Below are positions 1,093-58,385 of a DNA stretch of 64,000 bases, in pieces. The notes beneath the pieces are model-generated. The model worked only from the letters and a program-made list of their open reading frames with translations. It searched no databases and was not told the origin of the DNA. The DNA comes from Phytopythium helicoides. Taxonomy: Eukaryota > Oomycota > Peronosporomycetes > Pythiales > Pythiaceae. Each line of letters starts with the position of its first letter. The stretch's first letter is position 1. The position numbers were made by a program, and so were the translations under genes. Where the stretch lies: the NCBI GenBank assembly GCA_024867545.1, contig JANFNE010000037.1:602987-666986 (forward strand), given 5' to 3'.

Positions 1093-1456
1093 TGGCAATT
1101 GCGCAACAGCTTCAACGCGGTCAAGCGCTGATAGCTACAGTCTCCGTCCGAAGCGGATCGGTATCCGGACGAGGCCACCTGTTCTCTGATTAGTCTTGCA
1201 TTCTGTATCGCCCACACTAAGTACGAGTCGTAGAAACTCGTCTGCCACACGAATAAGCCAACGCACTGAATTGCTTCAACTTGAGATCATCAAGAGGCGA
1301 GTCCATTGCTCTTGTCGCTTTGTCTAGCGAACATTGCCGCAGCGCATACTCAAATCAAGTGATGCTGCTCTGCCAGTTGCAGCTCAAAGCGAGTGTGCGC
1401 CTAGTTTCCTTCTTCCCGGTTCTCCTTCCTTCTCCTTCATTCGCGAATCCGCCACC

Positions 1457-3283
1457 ATGGCGGCAAAGCGAGCTGCCAAGACGAAGCGCAAGCGCAAGGC
1501 CAAGCGACAGCGAACGACGACGGCCACTGACGGGAGAGTGCTCGAGCTGCCATCCGAATGGTACAGGCGCGAGGTTGCCGAGGACCTCTGGATGCCAGGG
1601 ACGACTATGTTGGGTGAGGTCAAGCGACCCAAACAGCCCGAGCGCGTGACCAAGTCCACTCGAGTGCATGTTCCCGACTCGGCGAGTGCCATCGAGCCCT
1701 TGCTGACGTCCTGGATCGACGTCGTGAACTTCACGGACGTGCCACTGCCAGAGGAGTGGAAGACCGGCAACATCCAGGAGGCGTCGAGGCTCGCCCACGA
1801 GAAAGAAGTCCGAGCTGAACAGGAGCGAGCTACACATGCACCTCCGCAGCGACAGCCTCGGCGTCGGTCAGCAGCTCAGGAGAGGAAGGAGCCGATAAAC
1901 AGCGTGCTCAAGCTACGGCTGTACCCGACCGTCGATCAGAGAGCCAAGCTGGACCAGATGTTCGCGACGCACCGCGCCGTCTACAACAAGCTGGTGGCAA
2001 GATCGAGAGAGGACTGCGCTGCTCGTGCAAACCGGGAGACGCGAATGTCAGTGTACGCGCTGAGCAAGAAGCATCGAGCGATCTCGACCAAGTCAACGAT
2101 GGGCAAGTACTTCAGAAACAAGAAGGCGCTTCGACGACACATGGCGGTGTATAATGAAGTTCATGATGGTGCCTTTCGCGACTTCAAGAAGGCAGTCGAC
2201 GCGTCTTCCAAAGCGTACTGGGAGCTGCTCAAAAAAGGGAAAGATACTACATTTCCCGAGCTCAAGTTCAAGAGCAAATTCGCGCGGTCAGACTCCATCG
2301 AACTTCGAGCTTCCTCACTCAAGTCGGTCAGCACCGACGACAAGCACTACGTACAGTTCCACCCCCAATTCTTTCAGTTTGGTGATAGCCCAGGGATCCG
2401 AATTTGCGGTCAGTTGCCACAGCTCGCCCACTCGGTTCGCCTTCAGAGGCTACGTGATGGCAGGTACAACCTGTGCATCCCCCGGCTGCGCGAGTTTCCA
2501 CAAACGGAGTCTCGCCGCGTGTGCGCGGTTGACCCAGGGGTGCGCAAGTTTGCTACCATCTACGACCCTTCCGGCCGGACGCTGAGCATCAAGGACTCAA
2601 ACCTGGCGATCCAGAAGCGGTTCGAAGCGATTGACTTGATGAAGTCCAAGCTCGCACGCAAGATCAATGAATGCAAGCGGCACTGCGCCAGCACTCAACG
2701 GCGGCAGCGGAAGAAGCCGCGCGGCCGTGCGAAGACCAAGCAGCACCGGCAGCGGTACCGCCTGCGTCGCCACATTCGTTTTGCGAACCGACGCATTACC
2801 CGCATGGTAGCTGATGTGCAGCACAAGCTGGCGAGCTGGCTGGCCAGCAACTACGACGAGGTGCTACTGCCGGAGTTCAACACCAAAGATATGGCGGCCA
2901 AGTGGGAGAAGCGGCAGGCAGAGCGTAGTGGAGCTGCTGCACCGCCACCTGCTCGAATGCAGCTTCCAGATGCTGCGGTACGACCCGGAGCCAGAGTCCG
3001 ACGGCAGCGCAAGATCACCAAGCCAGTCGTGCGTGCCATGATGGCACAAAGCCACTACAAGTTCCGCAAGATTTTGGGGCAGAAGATGAGTCGCGCCGGC
3101 GGGCGCTTGATCATGTGTCACGAGGAGTACACGTCGAAGACGTGTTCATCGTGTGGCTGGCTGAAGGATAACCTGGGCGGCAGCGAGGTGTACCGGTGTG
3201 GCTCTTGCCACGTCGTCCTTGACAGGGACGTCAACGCTGCTAAGAACATCCTGCACAAGAACCTAGGGAAGCTGCGCGTATAG
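1457..3283 (+). CDS. TnpB/Fanzor-family RNA-guided nuclease homolog (intact)
   Basis: Single-exon gene of 608 aa. I start at 1457 because the ATG sits in a perfect GCCACCATGG context; the frame is open further upstream. The N-terminus is very basic (KRKRKAKRQR), like a nuclear localisation signal. After an N-terminal extension of about 145 residues the OrfB_IS605-type start LKLRLYPTVDQRAKLDQ appears. The split RuvC centre is complete: D359 (CAVDPGVRKFA), E473 (LLPEFNTK) and D591 (LDRDVNAAKN). The zinc ribbon C563-x2-C566...C581-x2-C584 lies between motifs II and III. The family comprises IS200/IS605/IS607 TnpB and eukaryotic Fanzor proteins, which are guided by an RNA from the element's 3' end. 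Motif spacing is TnpB-like, so Fanzor2 or a direct TnpB transfer fits best. No tnpA recombinase is seen beside it. Nuclease activity is inferred. Confidence 0.85.
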   Translation: MAAKRAAKTKRKRKAKRQRTTTATDGRVLELPSEWYRREVAEDLWMPGTTMLGEVKRPKQPERVTKSTRVHVPDSASAIEPLLTSWIDVVNFTDVPLPEEWKTGNIQEASRLAHEKEVRAEQERATHAPPQRQPRRRSAAQERKEPINSVLKLRLYPTVDQRAKLDQMFATHRAVYNKLVARSREDCAARANRETRMSVYALSKKHRAISTKSTMGKYFRNKKALRRHMAVYNEVHDGAFRDFKKAVDASSKAYWELLKKGKDTTFPELKFKSKFARSDSIELRASSLKSVSTDDKHYVQFHPQFFQFGDSPGIRICGQLPQLAHSVRLQRLRDGRYNLCIPRLREFPQTESRRVCAVDPGVRKFATIYDPSGRTLSIKDSNLAIQKRFEAIDLMKSKLARKINECKRHCASTQRRQRKKPRGRAKTKQHRQRYRLRRHIRFANRRITRMVADVQHKLASWLASNYDEVLLPEFNTKDMAAKWEKRQAERSGAAAPPPARMQLPDAAVRPGARVRRQRKITKPVVRAMMAQSHYKFRKILGQKMSRAGGRLIMCHEEYTSKTCSSCGWLKDNLGGSEVYRCGSCHVVLDRDVNAAKNILHKNLGKLRV

Positions 3284-3724
3284 TGATCGCAGCGACCAAA
3301 TCGGCATGCCTTTGCCGAGAGGAGACCTGTCTGAGTGGTTGTAGCTGGAGGTGTAGGTGCAGCTGTTTCAGGCGTTAAAGGCCCACACTGTAGGTGAAAA
3401 AACAGGGAGAACAACACAATTTTTACACGCACCCAATGGGCCGCGTGCGTCCGCGAGATGCTCGGCCGCGCGCATACACCCGCGAGGTGGTCCGCAGCGT
3501 CCGCGCGGCTGCGGACGTCCACAATCCGCACGGCCGCAGTGAGTCCACAGCGTCCACAGCGTCCGCAGCGTCCGCGTCCGCGTCCATATTGCGGGCCGCG
3601 AGAACTTTCGCGCGTGCTTCCCTTCTCCCGGCGGCCCATCCGCGTCCGCAGTGACGTCGGCGGCGACCACCTCAGCGCGTCTCTGGCTGCGCATTCCCAC
3701 TCCACGACTTGACTGCGGACGGAC
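3284..3724 (+). other. Intergenic, 3' flank of nuclease gene plus promoter of next gene
   Basis: No supported gene. The first ~100 bases follow the stop codon of the TnpB/Fanzor gene and would be the expected place for an omega-RNA 3' end, but no second copy is available to define it. From about 3440 the sequence becomes very GC-rich, with many GTCCGCAG-like words, and leads into the ATG at 3725. A long open frame on the minus strand here is a GC-bias artefact. Confidence 0.5.
3541..3588 (+). repeat. Imperfect tandem GTCC(A/G)CAGC repeat
   Basis: Roughly five units of GTCCACAGC/GTCCGCAGC, then GTCCGC hexamers, lie head to tail in the region upstream of the membrane-protein gene. The same word and its complement (GCGGAC) recur through 3440-4080 and again in the 5' part of the asparaginase gene near 6660-6760. 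It looks like replication-slippage repeat. Confidence 0.6.
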
Positions 3725-5322
3725 ATGCGGACCGACCTGTGGACGCTCATGCGCGCCGGCAGCGGCGGTGGCGGCGGCGGCGGACGAGTGGACAAGCCCC
3801 GTCCGCAGCAGTCCACAGCTGCGGACGACCCGGCCGCGCAGCCCAGCGCCGACTTCTCCGACACGCCGTCCTCGCCGTCCGTGGTGGACGAGCCGCTGCA
3901 CCTGCGGCCCGACTCGATCGCGTTCTCGGCCACGCCGGACAGTGGGCCGCTGCGGCGTCCGCGTGGCCCGCCGCCGCCTCCGCCTCCGCAGCTGTGGACG
4001 CCTCCGGATCTGCAGCCTATGGACGGTCCGCAGGTGTCGCCGCCTCCGGACCTCGCCGCGGACCGTCCGCAGCAGCGCATCTCGCTGCCGAGACGCTCGA
4101 TCCTCGCGCCAGAGAAGAAAGCGGACGACGAGGACGAAGATGAGGACGACGACGGCGTCCGCCACCAGCCCAAGCGCTCGCGCAGCCGCATCCTGGGCGA
4201 ACTGAGGCCCGTGGCAAGTCCCCGTGAGGCCGCAGCCATCTCTACGCCGCTCAGCGTGGCCGCGCGAGAGCCCGAGCTGTCTACGCCGCCTCTGTGGCTG
4301 CCGGACGAACCCGAGGACGCGTCTGATGACGCCGAGTACTTTTCACTCGACGACGACGCGAGGCGCCGAGCCTTCGATGTGTTCGCGTCTCGCCGCGTGC
4401 GGCTGCAGCGCAAGTGGGGCGCCGACCTGTGGCTCTACATGTACGTTGCGGACTTGAGTGGGGGAGGTGTGGACGAAATACTGAGTGGATGTATGTGGAC
4501 GCAGGAAGAACTCGCACCCGGTGCTGGGGCTGGGCATGGCGCACCGATGGCACCCGTACCGCTCTTCGGATCGCGCGCTCGTGCTACTCGTGGCAATCGG
4601 TACGTTTCGCACCCTCGACAGCCCAACGGTCTCGTTTTCGTGGTTTCTAACTCGACCTGCGTGGGATATCAGGTGTCGCCATGCTGCTCAGCGGCATTGT
4701 GGCGACGCGATCGTGCTGCACTGAAGTTGACGAACCCTCCGCAGTGTTTCCTCCACTGCCTCTCGCCTCGACGGCTTCGTCCAAGACCGTATCCGCGGCG
4801 ACGACTCTAGAGTGCCAGTGTGGCCTCGCACACACTTCCGCCCTCGTGGCTGTCGTCATCGCCGCCGTGATCCCGCTCACCATTTTGCTGCTCGAGCCGC
4901 TGGTCACGCTCTACCTCGATTCGAAGCTCTGTGGATGTATTGTTCGCAGTCGTCCCCGCCCCTCCCTCGGCTCTGGTCAAGGGTGCATTTCGTACCGCGT
5001 GGACGGATTGGCTGCGAAGCTCGGACGCGCTTTCCTGGTGCTGCTGCTTATTGCACTCTCATTCGCGATCGGTCTTGTGGCTTCTCGAGCGAACGATGAG
5101 CAGAGCGGTGGTCTTCATTCGGTGGTGGTCGAGTGGGTCGTCATGTGTGCTTCTGCGTTGGCTTTGGGTCTGCTCGGATTCTGCTCGATCGTGTGGTTCG
5201 CTATCTTCACCGTCCGCTGGACCCGCGAAGACATCGCAGCCAAGAAAAGCGGTGAACTGGGCGATGAGAGCGTGCTCGTGCACACGTGGACGGCGCCGAC
5301 CGACGTGAACTCGACCGTATAA
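3725..5322 (+). CDS. Four-helix membrane protein with long disordered N-terminus
   Basis: Exons 3725-4440, 4505-4599 and 4673-5322 total 1461 nt (486 aa). Both introns (64 and 73 nt) start GTACGT and the phases agree. An in-frame TGA lies just upstream of the 3725 ATG, which fixes the start. Residues 1 to ~210 are Pro/Ser/Asp-rich and low in complexity. Then comes a short conserved-looking block spanning the first splice site (LWLYMKNSHPVLGL...HPYRSSDRAL). Four hydrophobic segments follow: around LVLLVAIGVAMLLSGI, VAVVIAAVIPLTILLL, AFLVLLLIALSFAIGL and ALALGLLGFCSIVWF. The KNSHP-to-helix block faintly recalls the region after the GPS site of polycystin/REJ proteins, but no ectodomain is present. 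Function unknown. Confidence 0.65.
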
Positions 5323-5542: not shown

Positions 5543-6784
5543 CTAGTGCGAGCCGAAGCGGACGACAGTCTGTCGGTGCTCGCGGGCTCGGCGGTGCACA
5601 TCCTCGCCCCGCGGGAGCGCGTCCACGAGGCTGAGCTCTCCGCGCAGGTCGGTCTCCATCTTCTCCTTGAGCGGCGATCCCTCAAAACCCTTGCCCATGA
5701 GGTACGCAAGCTTGGCGACGCACGCCTCGACCGTCATGTCGAAGCTCGTGATGACGCCCATCTCGAGCAGCGTCACGCCAGTAGCGTACGCGTCAAGCTG
5801 CGTACGACCACGAACGCACTGCGTGGTGACAACGACGGGGATGCCGGCCTTCACTGCCCGCTCGATGAGCTTGAGGAAGCTGTCCTTGCGCAGCGGGGCG
5901 TTGCCCGTGCCGTAGAGAGCGAAGACGAGCGCGCGGCCCTTAGTCTTAATCCCCTTGGCTTTCTGCGAGATGTGGCGCTCAATGTAAGCGTCAATGCAGT
6001 CGTCGTCGAAGCCCGGCACGAGGTGGAAGACGCAGATGTTGGTTGCGAGGTCGGTGAAGATGCTGAAGCGGCGACGCGGGTACGGCAGGATCAGCGCCTG
6101 GTCGACGGTGGTCTCGACGCCCGTGCGTGCGAGCACGGGGAAGTTGGGCGAGTGGAAGGCGTCCACGACCATGTTGGCGGTCTTGGTGGTACGGTTGCCG
6201 CGCAGCAGCTTGTCGTTCGAGTAGATGCAGACCTCCGGAATGGACAGCGTGGTGGCGCAGAGCACCGACATGATGAGGTTGCGGCGCGCGTCACTGTGCG
6301 GGAAGTGGAGCGGGATCATGGCGCCCGAGAGCACCACGGGCTTGCCCAGGTGCTCGAGCATGAAGCTGAGCGCCGAGGCCGTGTAGGCCATGGTGTCCGT
6401 GCCCTGCAGCACGACGAAGCCGTCGTAGTCCCAGTAGTGCTCCTCGATCTCGCGCGCGATGGTGGCCCAGTCGCTCGGCGCCATGTCGGACGAGTCGATC
6501 GGGTTCTCCCACTCGCTCACCGTCACCTCGGGCATGGTGTCGAACGCGAACTCGTCCATCTCGGCGATTTTCTTCTCCAGGAAGCCCGACGACGGGTGCA
6601 GCACGCCGTTGGCGTCGGGCACCATGCCGAACGTGCCGCCCGTGTAGATGATAAGGCAGCGCGGACGGCTGCGGGTGGACACCACGCTGGACACGTCCAC
6701 AGCTGCGGCCGCCACGTTGGACGCGTCCGCAACGATGGACACGTCCGCAGCGGACGAGGCAGACGGCGTGGACGGCTTGGCCAT
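5543..6784 (-). CDS. L-asparaginase, bacterial-type (type I)
   Basis: Single exon of 413 aa, starting in a CCATGG-like context. It hydrolyses L-asparagine to aspartate and ammonia. Both catalytic signatures are present: YTGGTFGM (nucleophile threonine about residue 51) and LQGTDTMAYTAS (GTDT at about 128-131). A further conserved segment is LSGAMIPLHFPHSDARRN. The total fits the two-domain type I enzyme plus an N-terminal extension of about 40 residues rich in Ala/Val/Ser. This extension is not a clear secretion signal, so a cytosolic location is likely. The extension's coding DNA shares the GTCCGCAG-type repeat words seen upstream of the neighbouring gene. A long open frame on the opposite strand is a shadow. 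Confidence 0.93.
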   Translation of the reverse strand: MAKPSTPSASSAADVSIVADASNVAAAAVDVSSVVSTRSRPRCLIIYTGGTFGMVPDANGVLHPSSGFLEKKIAEMDEFAFDTMPEVTVSEWENPIDSSDMAPSDWATIAREIEEHYWDYDGFVVLQGTDTMAYTASALSFMLEHLGKPVVLSGAMIPLHFPHSDARRNLIMSVLCATTLSIPEVCIYSNDKLLRGNRTTKTANMVVDAFHSPNFPVLARTGVETTVDQALILPYPRRRFSIFTDLATNICVFHLVPGFDDDCIDAYIERHISQKAKGIKTKGRALVFALYGTGNAPLRKDSFLKLIERAVKAGIPVVVTTQCVRGRTQLDAYATGVTLLEMGVITSFDMTVEACVAKLAYLMGKGFEGSPLKEKMETDLRGELSLVDALPRGEDVHRRAREHRQTVVRFGSH

Positions 6785-8699
6785 GGCGCGGGTGTATGGG
6801 GACGGCGGCGAAAGCGCGAGTGGCCGCGGTCGGCCGGCTGCGGACGCGGGGACCGAGTGGGGACGGCGAGCTGCGGACGCGCCGTGGACGGGCCACCACC
6901 AGAGACAGACCCAGCTGCTGGCCGCGCGGTCAGGATTTGAGCGGCCGCGTCACTTGCCGAGACTATCGACGCACGAGCAACACGCCGACAGCCGGAGTGA
7001 GCTGGCAAAACCTCAACGTTGCAGTCGCCTCGCAGCCATCCATGGAGCAGACGTCAGTATACGCGAGAGTATACGGTCTCAGCAGGGCTATACGCGCTTG
7101 AAGCTGGAAGGCGATTGCGCAATTGAGGACATCTCCTGTGGTCGTCGAGGAGGCATCACGTGCGGGTGACGGCACGGGAGGCATCGACTTGGGGGGGATC
7201 CGATCGGGAACTGATTCGATCGGGAGCTATCAGCAAGGCAAACCGACAAAGCACAAAAGTGTTCGTGTTGCACAACGATAGCTACACGAATGGTAGATGC
7301 ACGACACAAACTTTCGAGAGCCCGCGCAGATTGAACCCATGGAGCTGGGAGGTCTACATATGAACCACAACAGCAATACGAGCACCTACAAGACCGTGAC
7401 CTACGTACAGTGTGATGGCAATCCAATCCCCACCATGAAGATATCGTCTTCCTGCCCATGGTTGAAATCATCAAAATTCGAGATTCGGATACAAGAGAGC
7501 TTCTCCGCTTTCAGCTTCTCGGTTTCGCCAGCCAAACGGCGATTCCGTCTTCGAGGGAATATCTCAACTCGTATTTGCAAACTCAATCTAGCAATCCCCA
7601 ACGATCTCTCAATCAAGACAGAAGCGAACGTTTGTGCTTTCGCTCAGTGAGCACATCGCTCACTGCACCAACTTCTCAGCCAGCACACATCTTTTCAGCA
7701 AATGCCATCGCTAGAAAGCGGGCAAAGCACCAAACTGAAGTCTTGGATGGTGGGCAAAGTTTCTTCCGTTCTACTCCATAGACTCTAGACGAGGTGACCC
7801 CACTCATCCCCAGGTCAGTCTCGACTAAGAAACCGATCAATATTCAGAATCTTGAGAATATCCGCAAGGTCGAACATCTCTCGCGAAGCTTGTCTTTAGT
7901 CCGTACCGACACGAAAAAGTCTTGTTGCGGACTATCATCTGCAAAGGACCTCTAAAGATGTCATCCTCGCTTGAAGTGACTTGGTGGTCCACCACTCAGA
8001 ACTATCACGCTCAGGATGTCCGAGGTCTTCTTCTGAAGAAGCTCCGCGATAACATATTCATGCTATTCGAGCTTGCTTGTTCACCCAGCACAGCTCGCTG
8101 GATCAGCAAGCCTAATATACACGCGACCATAGGATAATAGCTTGCGGAATCTACAGAGTGCTGCGCATGAAGATTACACCGCAAAGACAGACTTCCCGAT
8201 GCCTACGTTGATGCGCAAATTCTGCTATGAGCGAGGGGTGTCGTGGCTACGAATATGTCGAGGTTTGAGCAGCAATCCCCCAAGACTGCCGTGCTTGGTG
8301 GCACAAATCTTCCAATATGCATGTTGAATCTGTGACCGTATCCGCACAGTCCGAGCTTGTTGATGTCAACAAGGTTTCCCTCGACATCTGTAGGTGATGC
8401 CACAGGAATATCTCAGAAGAAGCCACTTGGATTGCAGGAGAAGAACGCCAACAAATCGATCGCAGAAGCTCCATGAACGGTGGTTGACTCCAGGAGACTT
8501 GGCGCTCCGATAGCAAAGACGACAACAGGTGAAAAAGACTATCAGCAAGTGCACTCGATTTTCCCACTACGTAGCCCTCATTGAACGCTGCGTGTACCGC
8601 AATTGTAAGCACTCGCCAACGACTCGCGGGTATGGTCGTGAAAAACCCGGCATCCTTCGATAAAAGACGATGACTGGTAATGGAACCCAGTGAAAATGC
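6785..8699. other. Long intergenic region, no supported gene
   Basis: About 1.9 kb between the asparaginase start and the 3' side of the Fanzor-like element. From about 7200 it is less GC-rich than its surroundings. Only short open frames are present (the largest ~117 codons at 7297-7650) with no recognisable domain. The 6785-7150 part probably holds the asparaginase promoter. The rest may include the unmapped 3' portion of the Fanzor element or older decayed DNA. Confidence 0.5.
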
Positions 8700-8732
8700 A
8701 ACAATGCCTGAGTATACAGTGCTATCTGCGGG

Positions 8733-8796
8733 CAACACTGAGCGCACCAGCAGACATCTGGTGGTAACGCTGAGCGCACCTGCAGACACTTTGTGG
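8733..8796 (-). repeat. Two ~32-bp imperfect direct repeats downstream of the Fanzor-like ORF
   Basis: Two adjacent 32-bp units (8733-8764 and 8765-8796) share CTGAGCGCACC and GCAGACA cores with about six differences. A more degenerate third unit may precede them at 8701-8732. They lie 12-110 nt past the stop codon of the minus-strand Fanzor-like gene, which is where omega-RNA sequence of such elements is normally encoded. Whether they belong to a guide RNA is inference. Confidence 0.5.
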
Positions 8797-8807
8797 CCCC
8801 TGATGTA

Positions 8808-10787
8808 TTAAGTTGGCGCTCGACAGAAAACGGTAGGTCTTGGTTGACCACGGAGCATGTAGAAGAGAAGCATGAGCATGTTCTTCGAGGCGTTGACGTC
8901 GCGGTTCACAGTAGTACCAAAGCAGCCATTGGATCGACAATGGAGCACACTATAAACCTTGCACGTCCGCCATTCCTTGTTCGTGCTGTTCTTGACCTTG
9001 CAGAGGCGGAGACTGTACTGGTATTCTAGCTGCCGGTGGCAACGTGAGTGAAGCTTGCTGGTGCGAAACTCATCAATTGGTTGTACACGACAGTAGTTTC
9101 TCAATGTGTGCTCGACTCTCTTGACCGGCCCCGCGGGGCACTTCTTGATAAGTCCAGAGTAATCGGTATTGCTCCAATCTCCAAATCCAACCACCGTTCG
9201 CCTGCCTGCTTGCTGGGTCAGTCTCCGGCAGAGTTCATGTAGCTTCTTCTGCGCAAAGATGTACCGTCCAAAACGCAGGTTGCGGAATCCCTTCGCCCGT
9301 GAAAATCCTAGCAGATTTTCCATACGTGGAATAACGTATCGTGTGTACGTTTCCAGCAACTCGAGCGACGCGGTCTTCTTCGACGGCATCTGACGCTCGG
9401 CCGTCAAAATGTTGGGACGCCGCTCCTTCCAGCAAGCTATCTTCTGGTTGCTCTTGTGGTAGCGAGCATCCTCGTAGAACTCACGAGAAGAGCAGTGGAT
9501 AGTATCGCCGTCCTGATTGGTTGCTACAAACAGATCTCGTCTGCCAGGATCTAGGCCCCACATGACATCGTAGTCTTCTTCCCGAAGTGGGCGGTCTGTC
9601 GCCGGATGGGTTTTCCGCATGACGATGCTGACAGCCTTTCCGTCCGTCACGATCTCTCCTGCGAACTTCTTGTTGGCTGTTTCAAACTTCTCGATATTGA
9701 AGAGACTGTGCCACCAATCGTCTGCGACAGCATTCCAATCGTCACCTTGAGGAGGCACGCGAACACCAGCACGTAGAAGTAGGCTGCGGAGCGCCGTCTT
9801 GCACATCTTGAAGTGCGAGCACTTGAACCCATTCTTTGTCGGCAGGAGACTGAACGTGCGGACCTCTGAGATGTCCTGTCGATGCTGAAACCGGCGATTC
9901 CTCTCCTCAATGGCGGTCAGAATCATGTAGGTGAGAGGAAGCAATCTGTTAGCCTCGTCGGACAAGTAGCCGCTCTCGTTGCGCGGGATCTGCTCTCGCC
10001 AAGCCTGCACCTCGGTATCGTTGCCATTGTAGACAGGGTCCAGGATGCTCTTGATCATGACGTATGCCTCAGCACCATTCAAGTCATAGACCCGCTTGAT
10101 GTGACGGTGAAAGCGACGGTAGAAGTTGCGTACAATCGCGTTCTTGGTGTTACTGGCCATCATTTGGGCTGCGTTCTGCTGCCACCCAGCGGTAATCTGC
10201 CGGTTGCTTGCACGTCGAGCGTCCTCACCTCGCCAAGTGTTGTACAGCGTGACTGATTGCTGGAATGCAGGAGACCCGAGTGTGGAGTTGGCGTTGCAAA
10301 AACGCGATAGGCATCTGTAGAAGAAGACCTGGTTGAGTGGCTCCACTGCATCGCCCAGCTGACACATCCGCACGGCGTGGATGTTGGCGAGGACGTAAGC
10401 CTCCAGCACGGCCTGGTCCATATCCGCCAGCACGGACTCCCACGGCAAAGTCATGGCCTCGTCGCTCTTGCAAAACGCCTTGAGCGATGTCTTGACGCAC
10501 ACAAGCGAGGATTTGGCGTTAGCTGCGTCACGAGCTTCGACTTCGGCTCGTCGCCTCTTTGACTGACTCTTGCGTGGTTCTGCACTGCGCTTCTTCCTTT
10601 TAGACTTAGCACCGCCTGACGTCGGACCAGCTGCACGTGCTGTCTTGGACCGACCTCGACGAGTTGCGGAAGGAATTCTTCTCATTGTGGATCTGCGTAG
10701 CCCTGCGGGAGCTTGCCTGATCTTGGACCTGCCTCGCCGGGGACCTGGATCGCCCTCCGTGCCCGATAGAGCGCGCTTGTTTGCCAT
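8808..10787 (-). CDS. Fanzor-like nuclease (second, divergent lineage), full length
   Basis: Single exon of 659 aa, starting at GCCACCATGG. Residues 1-90 are Arg/Lys-rich with several possible NLS runs (KSKRKKRSAEP, KSQSKRRRAE). A long helical region precedes the nuclease core. RuvC-I is D413 (WGLDPGRRDLFVA) and RuvC-III is D630 (VNRDVNASKNM). At the RuvC-II strand (VVGFGDWSN) the expected Glu is a Gly near residue 536, while E573 in IDEFRTSK lies 37 residues on. That matches the rearranged active site I recall being reported for Fanzor proteins. The zinc finger is atypical: H580-x2-C583 and C617-x4-C622. It shares no obvious similarity with the 1457-3283 protein outside the RuvC/zinc core. 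A truncated relative lies at 56643-57907. Fanzor1 assignment and activity are inferred. Confidence 0.85.
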   Translation of the reverse strand: MANKRALSGTEGDPGPRRGRSKIRQAPAGLRRSTMRRIPSATRRGRSKTARAAGPTSGGAKSKRKKRSAEPRKSQSKRRRAEVEARDAANAKSSLVCVKTSLKAFCKSDEAMTLPWESVLADMDQAVLEAYVLANIHAVRMCQLGDAVEPLNQVFFYRCLSRFCNANSTLGSPAFQQSVTLYNTWRGEDARRASNRQITAGWQQNAAQMMASNTKNAIVRNFYRRFHRHIKRVYDLNGAEAYVMIKSILDPVYNGNDTEVQAWREQIPRNESGYLSDEANRLLPLTYMILTAIEERNRRFQHRQDISEVRTFSLLPTKNGFKCSHFKMCKTALRSLLLRAGVRVPPQGDDWNAVADDWWHSLFNIEKFETANKKFAGEIVTDGKAVSIVMRKTHPATDRPLREEDYDVMWGLDPGRRDLFVATNQDGDTIHCSSREFYEDARYHKSNQKIACWKERRPNILTAERQMPSKKTASLELLETYTRYVIPRMENLLGFSRAKGFRNLRFGRYIFAQKKLHELCRRLTQQAGRRTVVGFGDWSNTDYSGLIKKCPAGPVKRVEHTLRNYCRVQPIDEFRTSKLHSRCHRQLEYQYSLRLCKVKNSTNKEWRTCKVYSVLHCRSNGCFGTTVNRDVNASKNMLMLLFYMLRGQPRPTVFCRAPT

Positions 10788-11221
10788 GGTGGCAAATTAC
10801 ACTGTGAGTAGGGAGATCAGGGTCGGCAGCCGCTTTCGTTCGTTGCCGTTCGAGAGCGAGTGGGCGCTTGACAATTCAAAACATGCTATTGCCCATTTAC
10901 GTGTATGCAGGCAGAGCTGCAAAGGCCGCTTTACTAGCTTGCCGTGGCTCATGATGAAGCTCTGAAGATGCTTCTTATGGCATCTCCAACAAGCAATACG
11001 AACTGTCAATGCAGTGGTGTTGTCATCGCTGGGGGAGGGCATCGCGCAACCCGCTTGAAGCTGATGAACTGCGCTGCCAGCTTGTCAATTGGGCAGCACC
11101 GTAACGACAGGTTCAATTAGTTTCACGTTTTCCGGTTGAGTGAGAGTTTGCGCCGATCTTTGTGCTGAGAAGGGTGAATGTAGAAATGGAGGGGTTTGTG
11201 GCCATCTACCACAGCGCCAAT

Positions 11222-11236
11222 GCCGGGTTCCCCGGC
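11222..11236. other. Terminal hairpin of the Fanzor-like element
   Basis: GCCGGG-TTC-CCCGGC, a 6-bp perfect stem with a 3-base loop, 6 bp inside the element's 5' boundary. The second copy has the same stem with loop TAC at 58365-58379. The loop differs while the stem is kept. Confidence 0.6.
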
Positions 11237-11415
11237 CATTCATCACCAAGCAGCAACACGAAAGCAATGTGTTGTTATTGAAGTTTGGTCCGAATGATGG
11301 TCCGGCCACGCACGTGGATGAGGTTGCGTCGTGCGTCCGCGCCCGCCACAACCGAATCCGCCGGCTGGCCGCATCGTCCACAGTCGTCGCCAGCACTCGC
11401 ACTAGGAGATCTTCC

Positions 11416-56642: not shown

Positions 56643-57907
56643 GCTACAAACAGATCTCGTCTGCCAGGATCTAGGCCCCACATGGCATCGTAGTCTTCTT
56701 CCCTAAGTGGGCGGTCTGTCGCCGGATGGGTTTTCCCCATGACAATGCTGACAGCCTTTCCGTCCGTCATGATCTCTCCTACGAACTTCTTGTTGGCTGT
56801 TTCAAACTTCTCGATTTTGAAGATACTGTGCCACCAATCGTCAGCGACAGCATTCCAATCGTCGCCTAGAAGAGGCACGCGAACACCAGCACGTAGAAGT
56901 AGGCTGCGGAGCGCCGTCTTGCACATCTTGAAGTGCGAGCACTTGAACCCATTCTTTGTCGGCAGGAGACTGAACGTGCGGACCTCTGGGATGTCCTGTC
57001 GATGCTGAAACCGGCGATTCCTCTCCTCAATGTCGGTCAGAATCATGTAGGTGAGAGGAAGCAATCTGTTAGCCTCGTCGGACAAGTAGCCGCTCTCGTT
57101 GCGCGGGATCTGCTCTCGCCAAGCCTGCACCTCGGTATCGTCGCCGTTGAAGACAGGGTCCAGGATGCTCTTGATCATGACGTAGGCCTCAGCACCGTTC
57201 ATGTCATAGACCCGCTTGATGTGACGGTGAAAGCGACGGTAGAAGTTGCGTACGATCGCTTTCTTGGTGTTAGTGGCCATCATTTGGGCTGCGTTCTGCT
57301 GCCACCCAGCGGTAATCTGCCAGTTGCTTGCACGTCGAGCATCCTCACCTCGCCAAGTGTTGTACAGCGTGACTGATTGCTGGAATGCAGGAGACCTGAG
57401 TGTGGAGTTGGCGTTGCAAACACACGATAGGCATCTGTAGAAGAAGGCCTGGTTGAGTGGCTCCACTGCATCGCCCAGCTGACACATCCGCACGGCGTGG
57501 ATGTTGGCGAGGACGTAAGCCTCCAGCACGGCCTGGTCCATATCCGCCAGCACGGACTCCCACGGCAAAGTCATGGCCTCATCGCTCTTGCAAAACGCCT
57601 TGAGCGACGTCTTGACGCACACAAGCGAGGATTTGGCGTTAGCTGCGTCACGAGCTTCGACTTCGGCTCGTCGCCTCTTTGACTGACTCTTGCGTGGTTC
57701 TGCACTGCGCTTCTTCCTTTTAGATCTAGCATCGCCTGACGTCGGATCAGCTGCACGTGTTGTCTTGGACCGACCTCGACGAGTTGCGGAAGCAGTTCTT
57801 CTCATTGTGGATCTGCGTAGCCCTGCGGAAGCTTGCCTGGTCTTGGACCTGCCTCGCCGGGGACCTGGATCGCCCTCCGTGCCCGATCGAGCGCGCTTGT
57901 TTGCCAT
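56643..57907 (-). pseudogene. 3'-truncated Fanzor-like gene (copy 2)
   Basis: The frame from 57907 matches the first ~417 residues of the 8808-10787 protein at roughly 95% identity, including the GCCACCATGG start context and the basic N-terminus. Similarity ends right after RuvC-I (WGLDPGRRDLFVA). The frame then runs ~65 codons into unrelated sequence to a stop at 56456. RuvC-II, the zinc finger and RuvC-III are missing, so it cannot be a nuclease. The 5' coding part has no frameshift or stop, which suggests recent truncation. Confidence 0.88.
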
Positions 57908-58385
57908 GGTGGCAAATTACACTGTGAGTAGGGAGATCAGGGTCGGCAGCCGCTTTCGTTCGTTGCCGTTCGAGAGCGAGTTGGTGCTTGCCAATTCAAA
58001 ACATGCTATTGTCTCATTATGCCCATTTACATGTATGCAGGCATAGCTGCAAAGGCCGCTTTACTAGCTTGCCGTGGCTCATGGTGGAACTCTGGAGATC
58101 CTTCCTATGGCATCTCCAACAAGCAATATGAAGTGTCCATGCAGTGCTGTTGTCATCGCTGGGGGAGGGCATCGCGCAACCCGCTTGAAGCTGATGAACT
58201 GCGCTGCCAGCTTGTCAATTGGGCAGTACCGTAACGACAGGTTTATTTAGTTTCACGTCTCCTTTTCTACCTTTTCCGGTTGAGTGGGTGTTCACATCGA
58301 TCGTTGTACTGAGAAGGATGAATGTAGAAATGGAGGTTTTGTGACCATCTACCACACAGCCAATGCCGGGTACCCCGGCCATTCA
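56643..58385 (-). mobile_element. Fanzor-like transposable element, copy 2 (3'-truncated)
   Basis: Matches 9523-11242 of copy 1, including ~475 bp of 5' flank and the terminal hairpin (58365-58379). Two small length differences lie in the flank (about 10 bp near 58010 and about 13 bp near 58257). The outer end is followed by sequence unlike copy 1, which places the element border at 58385. Confidence 0.85.

Follow-up and report, generated by a model that had tools for sequence, protein, structure and literature searches.

Fanzor2 genes have been described in several genomic settings. A table in Bao and Jurka 2013 (PMC3627910) lists one Fanzor2 each in Phytophthora sojae, P. capsici and P. ramorum, and passages of the same paper place Fanzor2 in IS607-like elements. 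Passages of Yoon et al. 2023 (PMC10711439) describe Fanzor2 captured by terminal inverted repeat (TIR) transposons in an alga and in molluscs, and excerpts of Saito et al. 2023 (PMC10432273) report RNA-guided cleavage by Naegleria and Mercenaria Fanzor2. A literature search by title found no study dedicated to oomycete Fanzor2. Here, we analyzed a Fanzor2 gene of Phytopythium helicoides in a 64,000-nucleotide stretch of DNA (C32:602987-666986, the window) from a 49.06-Mb assembly of 100 contigs.

We conclude that the locus is very probably an intact Fanzor2, carried as the single gene of a small mobile element (about 2.1-2.3 kb) without its own transposase, and that the protein is predicted to be RNA-guided. 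The observed basis is a RuvC triad of aspartate, alternative glutamate and aspartate with a zinc ribbon, purifying selection, and a conserved 3' block with a covarying hairpin. The genomic context consists of three paralogues of the same family (family A) and three other Fanzor2 families. Since Phytophthora Fanzor2 has been published since 2013 (table in PMC3627910), the locus is less exceptional than was implied by the sequence-only reading, an earlier note made from the letters of this stretch. The element and its gene were delimited as follows.

1257 to 3395, forward strand: element body common to the paralogous copies, from copy comparison; left edge uncertain.
1457 to 3283, forward strand: Fanzor2 open reading frame (ORF), 608 amino acids (aa), from profile matches, a solved-structure match, the tree and a 13-protein alignment.

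We found 608 codons open from the ATG at 1457-3283 (+), the uninterrupted frame that the sequence-only reading had described. The start context that it called ideal (GCCACCATGG) was confirmed, and the N-terminus that it likened to a nuclear localization signal is a basic stretch as described (MAAKRAAKTKRKRKAKRQR). The ORF matched the Pfam families Cas12f1-like_TNB (2e-19) and HTH_OrfB_IS605 (1.9e-8), with OrfB_IS605 under the cut-off, and scored 107.5 bits against the NCBIfam model guided_TnpB (cut-off 100). By sequence and by predicted fold, the closest solved structure was mimivirus Fanzor2 (9b0l). In a midpoint-rooted tree of 53 chosen rows, the window protein grouped with the Fanzor2 and pro-Fanzor rows (support 100/97); the Fanzor1 rows stood apart (100/100), and the canonical TnpB rows had support 91/86. 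This tree, proposed with the sequence-only reading, thus placed the protein inside the Fanzor2 group and not outside the TnpB/Fanzor clade. The call of a TnpB/Fanzor-type gene agrees with Pfam, NCBIfam and the tree. Judged from these comparisons, the 1457-3283 frame is real and its product is a Fanzor2, far beyond chance.

Residue conservation was assessed in an alignment of 13 proteins, comprising the query together with 12 out of 21 homologues. D359, E556, C563, C566, C581, C584, D589 and D591 are invariant in 13/13. The RuvC-I motif VDPG provides the acid D359, the RuvC-III aspartate (RD) is D591, and the C4 zinc ribbon C563/C566/C581/C584 comprises the four cysteines recognized earlier. 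The triad first proposed was D359/E473/D591, of which both aspartates stood but E473 did not. Residue 473 is S in seven proteins, V in three, and E, Y and R in one each; it adjoins the canonical RuvC-II position, residue 472, which is P in 12/13. E473 is therefore ruled out as the RuvC-II acid (E in 1/13), the conserved acid being E556 (13/13). In passages of PMC10711439, Fanzors are defined by a RuvC-I DPG and a glutamate six residues before the zinc finger, which replaces the canonical one. By letter count it is E557 that sits six before C563, but E556 is the invariant residue, present in 13/13 compared with 11/13 for E557. On this alignment, the triad is D359-E556-D591, the Fanzor arrangement with an alternative RuvC-II glutamate. 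This correction changes the glutamate that should be mutated when activity is assayed.

A protein search of the genome yielded 31 matches. The fetched copies were sorted by DNA similarity into four families: A (the window copy, L11, L10, L14), B (L12, L13, L15), C (L16a, L16b, L17) and D (L19, L20, L21). The weaker matches L18, L22, C11 and C33 were left outside this sorting. Stop-free frames of 608-715 aa exist in all four families. The four copies of family A lie on three contigs and have a common 3' RNA block; of these, L10 carries a disrupting insert of about 1.1 kb and L14 has decayed. The right edge of the element body follows ...CTGTAGGT, and on the left L11 and L10 (contig C79) reach about 110 bases further than the window copy.

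Three further observations concern these copies. The insert in L10 (C79) has short inverted ends (TGTGGTAAAG / CTTTATCACA) and a target repeat of 4-5 bases. Family D has three open frames of 715 aa (C21, C16), two of them about 106 kb apart on C16, and its protein is a very divergent Fanzor2-like one with a tree branch of 1.53. L15 (C1:1936000-1945999) is a 9.6-kb near-perfect palindrome with a 99.4% inverted self-match, containing Fanzor1 and Fanzor2 pieces; it may be either a true inverted duplication or an assembly artefact.

Downstream of the coding sequence, we delimited four features of a putative guide RNA.

3281 to 3395, forward strand: candidate omega-RNA scaffold, from paralogue conservation of 3281-3338.
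3301 to 3318, forward strand: hairpin P1, 6 bp UCGGCA/UGCCGA, then GAGGAG, in 10/10 copies of families A, B and C.
3326 to 3383, forward strand: stem P2, CCU-GUCUGAG ... UUCAGGC-GUUAA-AGG, in 6/7 copies of families A and B.
3396 to 3415, forward strand: predicted guide region, the flank just past the element, following passages of PMC10711439, provided that the scaffold stops near 3395.

In the 58-base block that opens with the stop codon (3281-3338), L11, L10 and L14 differ from the window copy at 0, 1 and 2 sites, compared with 41/195, 48/195 and 58/182 sites (21-32%) in the 5' leader at 1260-1456 (Fisher p 7.7e-6, 1.1e-5 and 1.4e-6, respectively). The remaining 3' region, 3339-3396, diverges among the paralogues. 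Such uneven constraint right after the stop codon would be expected of an omega-RNA and, with the hairpin described below, makes the region of about 3281-3395 a strong omega-RNA candidate. The region suggested earlier, 3100-3450, is kept as a candidate with its limits redrawn from the stop codon to about 3395.

Hairpin P1 lies 19-26 bases past the start of the stop codon in the 10/10 copies of families A-C (for L13, the stretch was taken from one base before the stop codon). GGAG follows directly in families B and C, and two bases later in family A. The stems across families are UCGGCA/UGCCGA, UCGGCG/CGUCGA and UCGGAG/CUCCGA, so that between families 2/6 pairs are changed on both sides and one from G-C to G-U. 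P1 thus appears to be kept via compensatory changes across three families. This count covers families A-C; family D was folded in 2/3 copies. Stem P2 was sought by sequence frame and has just 4 inner pairs in L13, and L14 retains the 58-base block without the 3' arm of P2; a role of L14 RNA in trans was weighed and is not put forward. A pseudoknot between the P1 loop and the 3' end of the element is expected from passages of PMC10711439, and Watson-Crick counts are suggestive of it in family C (3/3 copies, p ~0.04) and family B (2/3, p ~0.03). Rfam at gathering thresholds gave no family in the window.

Several results weigh against the omega-RNA assignment. The contrast of the 58-base block with the coding sequence is milder than with the leader (p 0.0068, 0.029 and 0.0005), and the single-sequence fold of 3265-3396 is ordinary (z -1.4), 13/200 shuffles being equally good. 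P1 was picked as the best stem lying directly 5' of GGAG, without a shuffle control, and family A on its own, aligned over four copies, contains no compensatory pair. The pseudoknot is weak over 9 copies, being absent in L13 (p 0.99) and reaching p 0.09-0.52 in three copies of family A.

The origin of the element was considered next to its possible mode of movement. It is conceivable, although on balance doubtful, that it is an IS607-type element that was formerly moved by a serine recombinase and has lost TnpA. Fanzor2 in IS607 elements is the classic association according to passages of PMC3627910, a cyanobacterial pro-Fanzor is among the relatives, and L11, L10 and the window copy have no convincing TIRs or target-site duplications (TSDs). 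However, the 49.06-Mb assembly, searched in six frames for the IS607 TnpA (PF00239 serine recombinase), gave no match, whereas 10/14 control genomes were positive. The earlier statement that no tnpA adjoins the gene holds, and for PF00239 it extends to the whole assembly.

Flanking repeats were compared in 12 Fanzor2 copies, with 106 cross-family flank pairs as control. We identified direct repeats of 10-11 bp near the 3' boundary in 3/12 copies, namely L12 (GGGTATTATC), L16b (GTGAAGGGAAG) and L17 (GTGTAACTGA), and 0/106 control pairs reached 10 bp. Since serine-recombinase elements produce no TSDs according to passages of PMC3627910, these repeats argue against an IS607 origin for families B and C, and do not apply directly to family A. 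The boundaries were hand-set; a five-base shift of the L12 and L13 boundaries left the repeat lengths unchanged. Repeats were at most 7 bp in L11, L10, L13 and the three D copies, and 8 bp in L14 and L16a. L16a and L16b were counted as one insertion because they are a local duplication with a common left flank, and added left flank of L16a yielded an 8-bp match at best. For the window copy, the 9-bp repeat GCCCACACT was rejected as a TSD, as it lies at control level (9 bp was reached in 3/106 pairs). A wider left search, with a minimum of 7 bases at the right edge, gave no TSD for the window copy, L11 or L10. The best inverted matches in families A-C span 7-10 bases, none of them convincing as TIRs. 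In family D, L21 has a 78-bp inverted match (91%) between its two ends.

These repeats lead us to put forward, tentatively and as a reading that is still rather doubtful as a whole, that oomycete Fanzor2 has left the IS607 lifestyle. Families B and C, at least, would move by making TSDs of 10-11 bp without TIRs, with a variable 5' end and a 3' end fixed where the omega-RNA scaffold stops. This might be like the one-ended behaviour of Helitron2-borne Fanzor1, with an enzyme supplied in trans, for example from the many Helitrons. Support for this reading comes from three insertions of families B and C, so it is not demonstrated for the window copy. Should the repeat pattern hold up, these copies would allow one to ask how Fanzor2 can spread when TnpA is absent.

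We also compared substitution rates at nonsynonymous (dN) and synonymous (dS) sites. Between the window copy and L11, the 92% paralogue, dN was 0.042 and dS 0.262 (dN/dS 0.159). The ratio was 0.205 against L10, 0.395 against the decayed L14, and 0.259 between L11 and L10 (the L10 insert being excluded in both comparisons). These values suggest that the gene is under purifying selection, and it does not look like a silent relic. It seems unlikely, then, that the frame merely looks intact while its expression or mobility is gone. The dN/dS of 0.16 and 0.21 against two paralogues disfavours an old silent relic, and over that divergence 608 codons have stayed stop-free, with just 0-2 changes in 58 noncoding bases. 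A relic would fit the lack of a clear TSD at the window copy, its 5' end, seemingly shortened compared with L11 and L10, and the dS of 0.26 to the nearest paralogue found, which indicates no recent amplification within family A. The shorter 5' end and the control-level repeat at the window copy also count against the intact mobile element that we favour.

Domestication of Fanzor2 for a host task, so that it is no longer an element, is quite unlikely: the dN/dS of 0.16 against L11 and the lack of any serine recombinase found in the genome would suit it, but family A has the look of a mobile family, its four copies being spread over three contigs with a common 3' RNA block, one of them interrupted and another decayed, and a host task would not require a guide-RNA end in every copy.

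For an intact Fanzor2 in a small mobile element, we propose that the 3' part of the transcript would be the omega-RNA. Fanzor2 would bind this RNA, the adjoining flank would serve as guide, and matching DNA would be cut beside a short target-adjacent motif (TAM). As in TnpB elements, the empty donor allele would be cut after excision, which would favour retention or copying of the element. Mobilization, if ongoing, would be carried out by a recombinase or transposase encoded elsewhere. The suggestion that the gene encodes a candidate active RNA-guided nuclease is upheld, as a candidate, because the protein belongs to the TnpB/Fanzor clade and both its coding and 3' noncoding sequence appear to be under purifying selection. 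With this locus, the oomycetes gain a Fanzor2 that is intact and maintained by selection, and whose omega-RNA candidate has well-defined limits.

The surroundings of the gene were described earlier as a TMTC-like gene and a membrane-protein gene. We found no Pfam family on the upstream frames 3-605 and 610-1089 or on the downstream frames 3725-4807 and 4681-5319, the remaining upstream gene being unscanned, and this description was not supported. An asparaginase gene is certain at 5543-6784 (-). Its product is 77-79% identical to proteins of Globisporangium, Lagenidium, Pythium oligandrum and Phytophthora nicotianae, and two metagenome proteins are nearer (93% and 85%). These identities indicate that the host is an oomycete of that group, in support of the oomycete nuclear locus proposed before. 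A second Fanzor lies 5.3 kb from Fanzor2, in another, high-copy element.

8603 to 11239, reverse strand: Fanzor1 element with Helitron2-like ends, ORF 8808-10787 (659 aa), separate from the Fanzor2 element.

The closest solved structure to the Fanzor1 ORF is SpuFz1 (8gkh, 3.4e-10). We scored 67 matches of 309 candidates in the genome, and 25 of the 67 have no stop across 655 or more of the 659 residues and show 94-100% identity. From these sequences, Fanzor1 looks like a high-copy, recently active family. At its 5' terminus the element has a hairpin (ATGGCCGGGGTACCCGGCAT), matched by an asymmetric inverted repeat close to the 3' end, and these ends fit Helitron2 as given in passages of PMC3627910. 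Allowing up to 3 mismatches, the 5' motif occurs 79 times in the genome and the 3' motif 121 times, and reversed-pattern controls gave 0. The genome has 33 Helitron_like_N matches, but no autonomous partner was identified for the Fanzor1 element. A second, shortened copy of the element lies at 56643-58385 (-) of the window and is 94% identical to the first 1.7 kb. Fanzor1 copies occur near Fanzor2 at three places (the window, C79 and C1), and a functional pairing of the two was entertained as a possibility. Since a single genome holds four Fanzor2 families together with a high-copy Fanzor1 element, it becomes possible to test what role Fanzors have in element persistence.

Compared with known systems, the window protein is 21-23% identical in structural alignments to the mimivirus Fanzor2 (Acanthamoeba polyphaga mimivirus, TnpB-like L79, PDB 9b0l), from which it differs by its basic N-terminus and by the lack of an IS607 TnpA match in the oomycete genome. 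A search of viral contigs covered 80 loci of 318 relatives, and 158/160 loci from the viral and the bacterial and archaeal collections gave a frame. By eye, a single protein among the 80 viral loci, L037 (IMGVR_UViG_3300035670_009930), has DPG and the alternative glutamate. The cyanobacterial pro-Fanzor of Anabaenopsis elenkinii (L117), the top match among the bacterial and archaeal genomes searched (E 2e-32), likewise has both, but it is bacterial and 26% identical. Spizellomyces punctatus Fanzor1 (8gkh) is an RNA-guided RuvC nuclease of the same superfamily, whereas the Fanzor1 rows form a separate group (100/100). Fanzor2*, which passages of PMC10711439 describe as Fanzor2 in non-IS607 transposons, likewise lacks TnpA, and TSD-like repeats occur at some copies of families B and C, with none clear at the window copy. 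As reported there, however, Fanzor2* has TIRs, and families A-C gave none that was convincing. Phytophthora Fanzor2 belongs to another species and subfamily; it was compared through database proteins. The named P. citrophthora/Nothophytophthora proteins P0002-P0005, P0008 and P0009 are 45-49% identical over 65-95% of the query, and P0002-P0005 fall in the same group as the window protein (100/99). Taken together, the locus is a known kind of system and not a new one: it is an intact, well-preserved further example of Fanzor2 in an oomycete genome.
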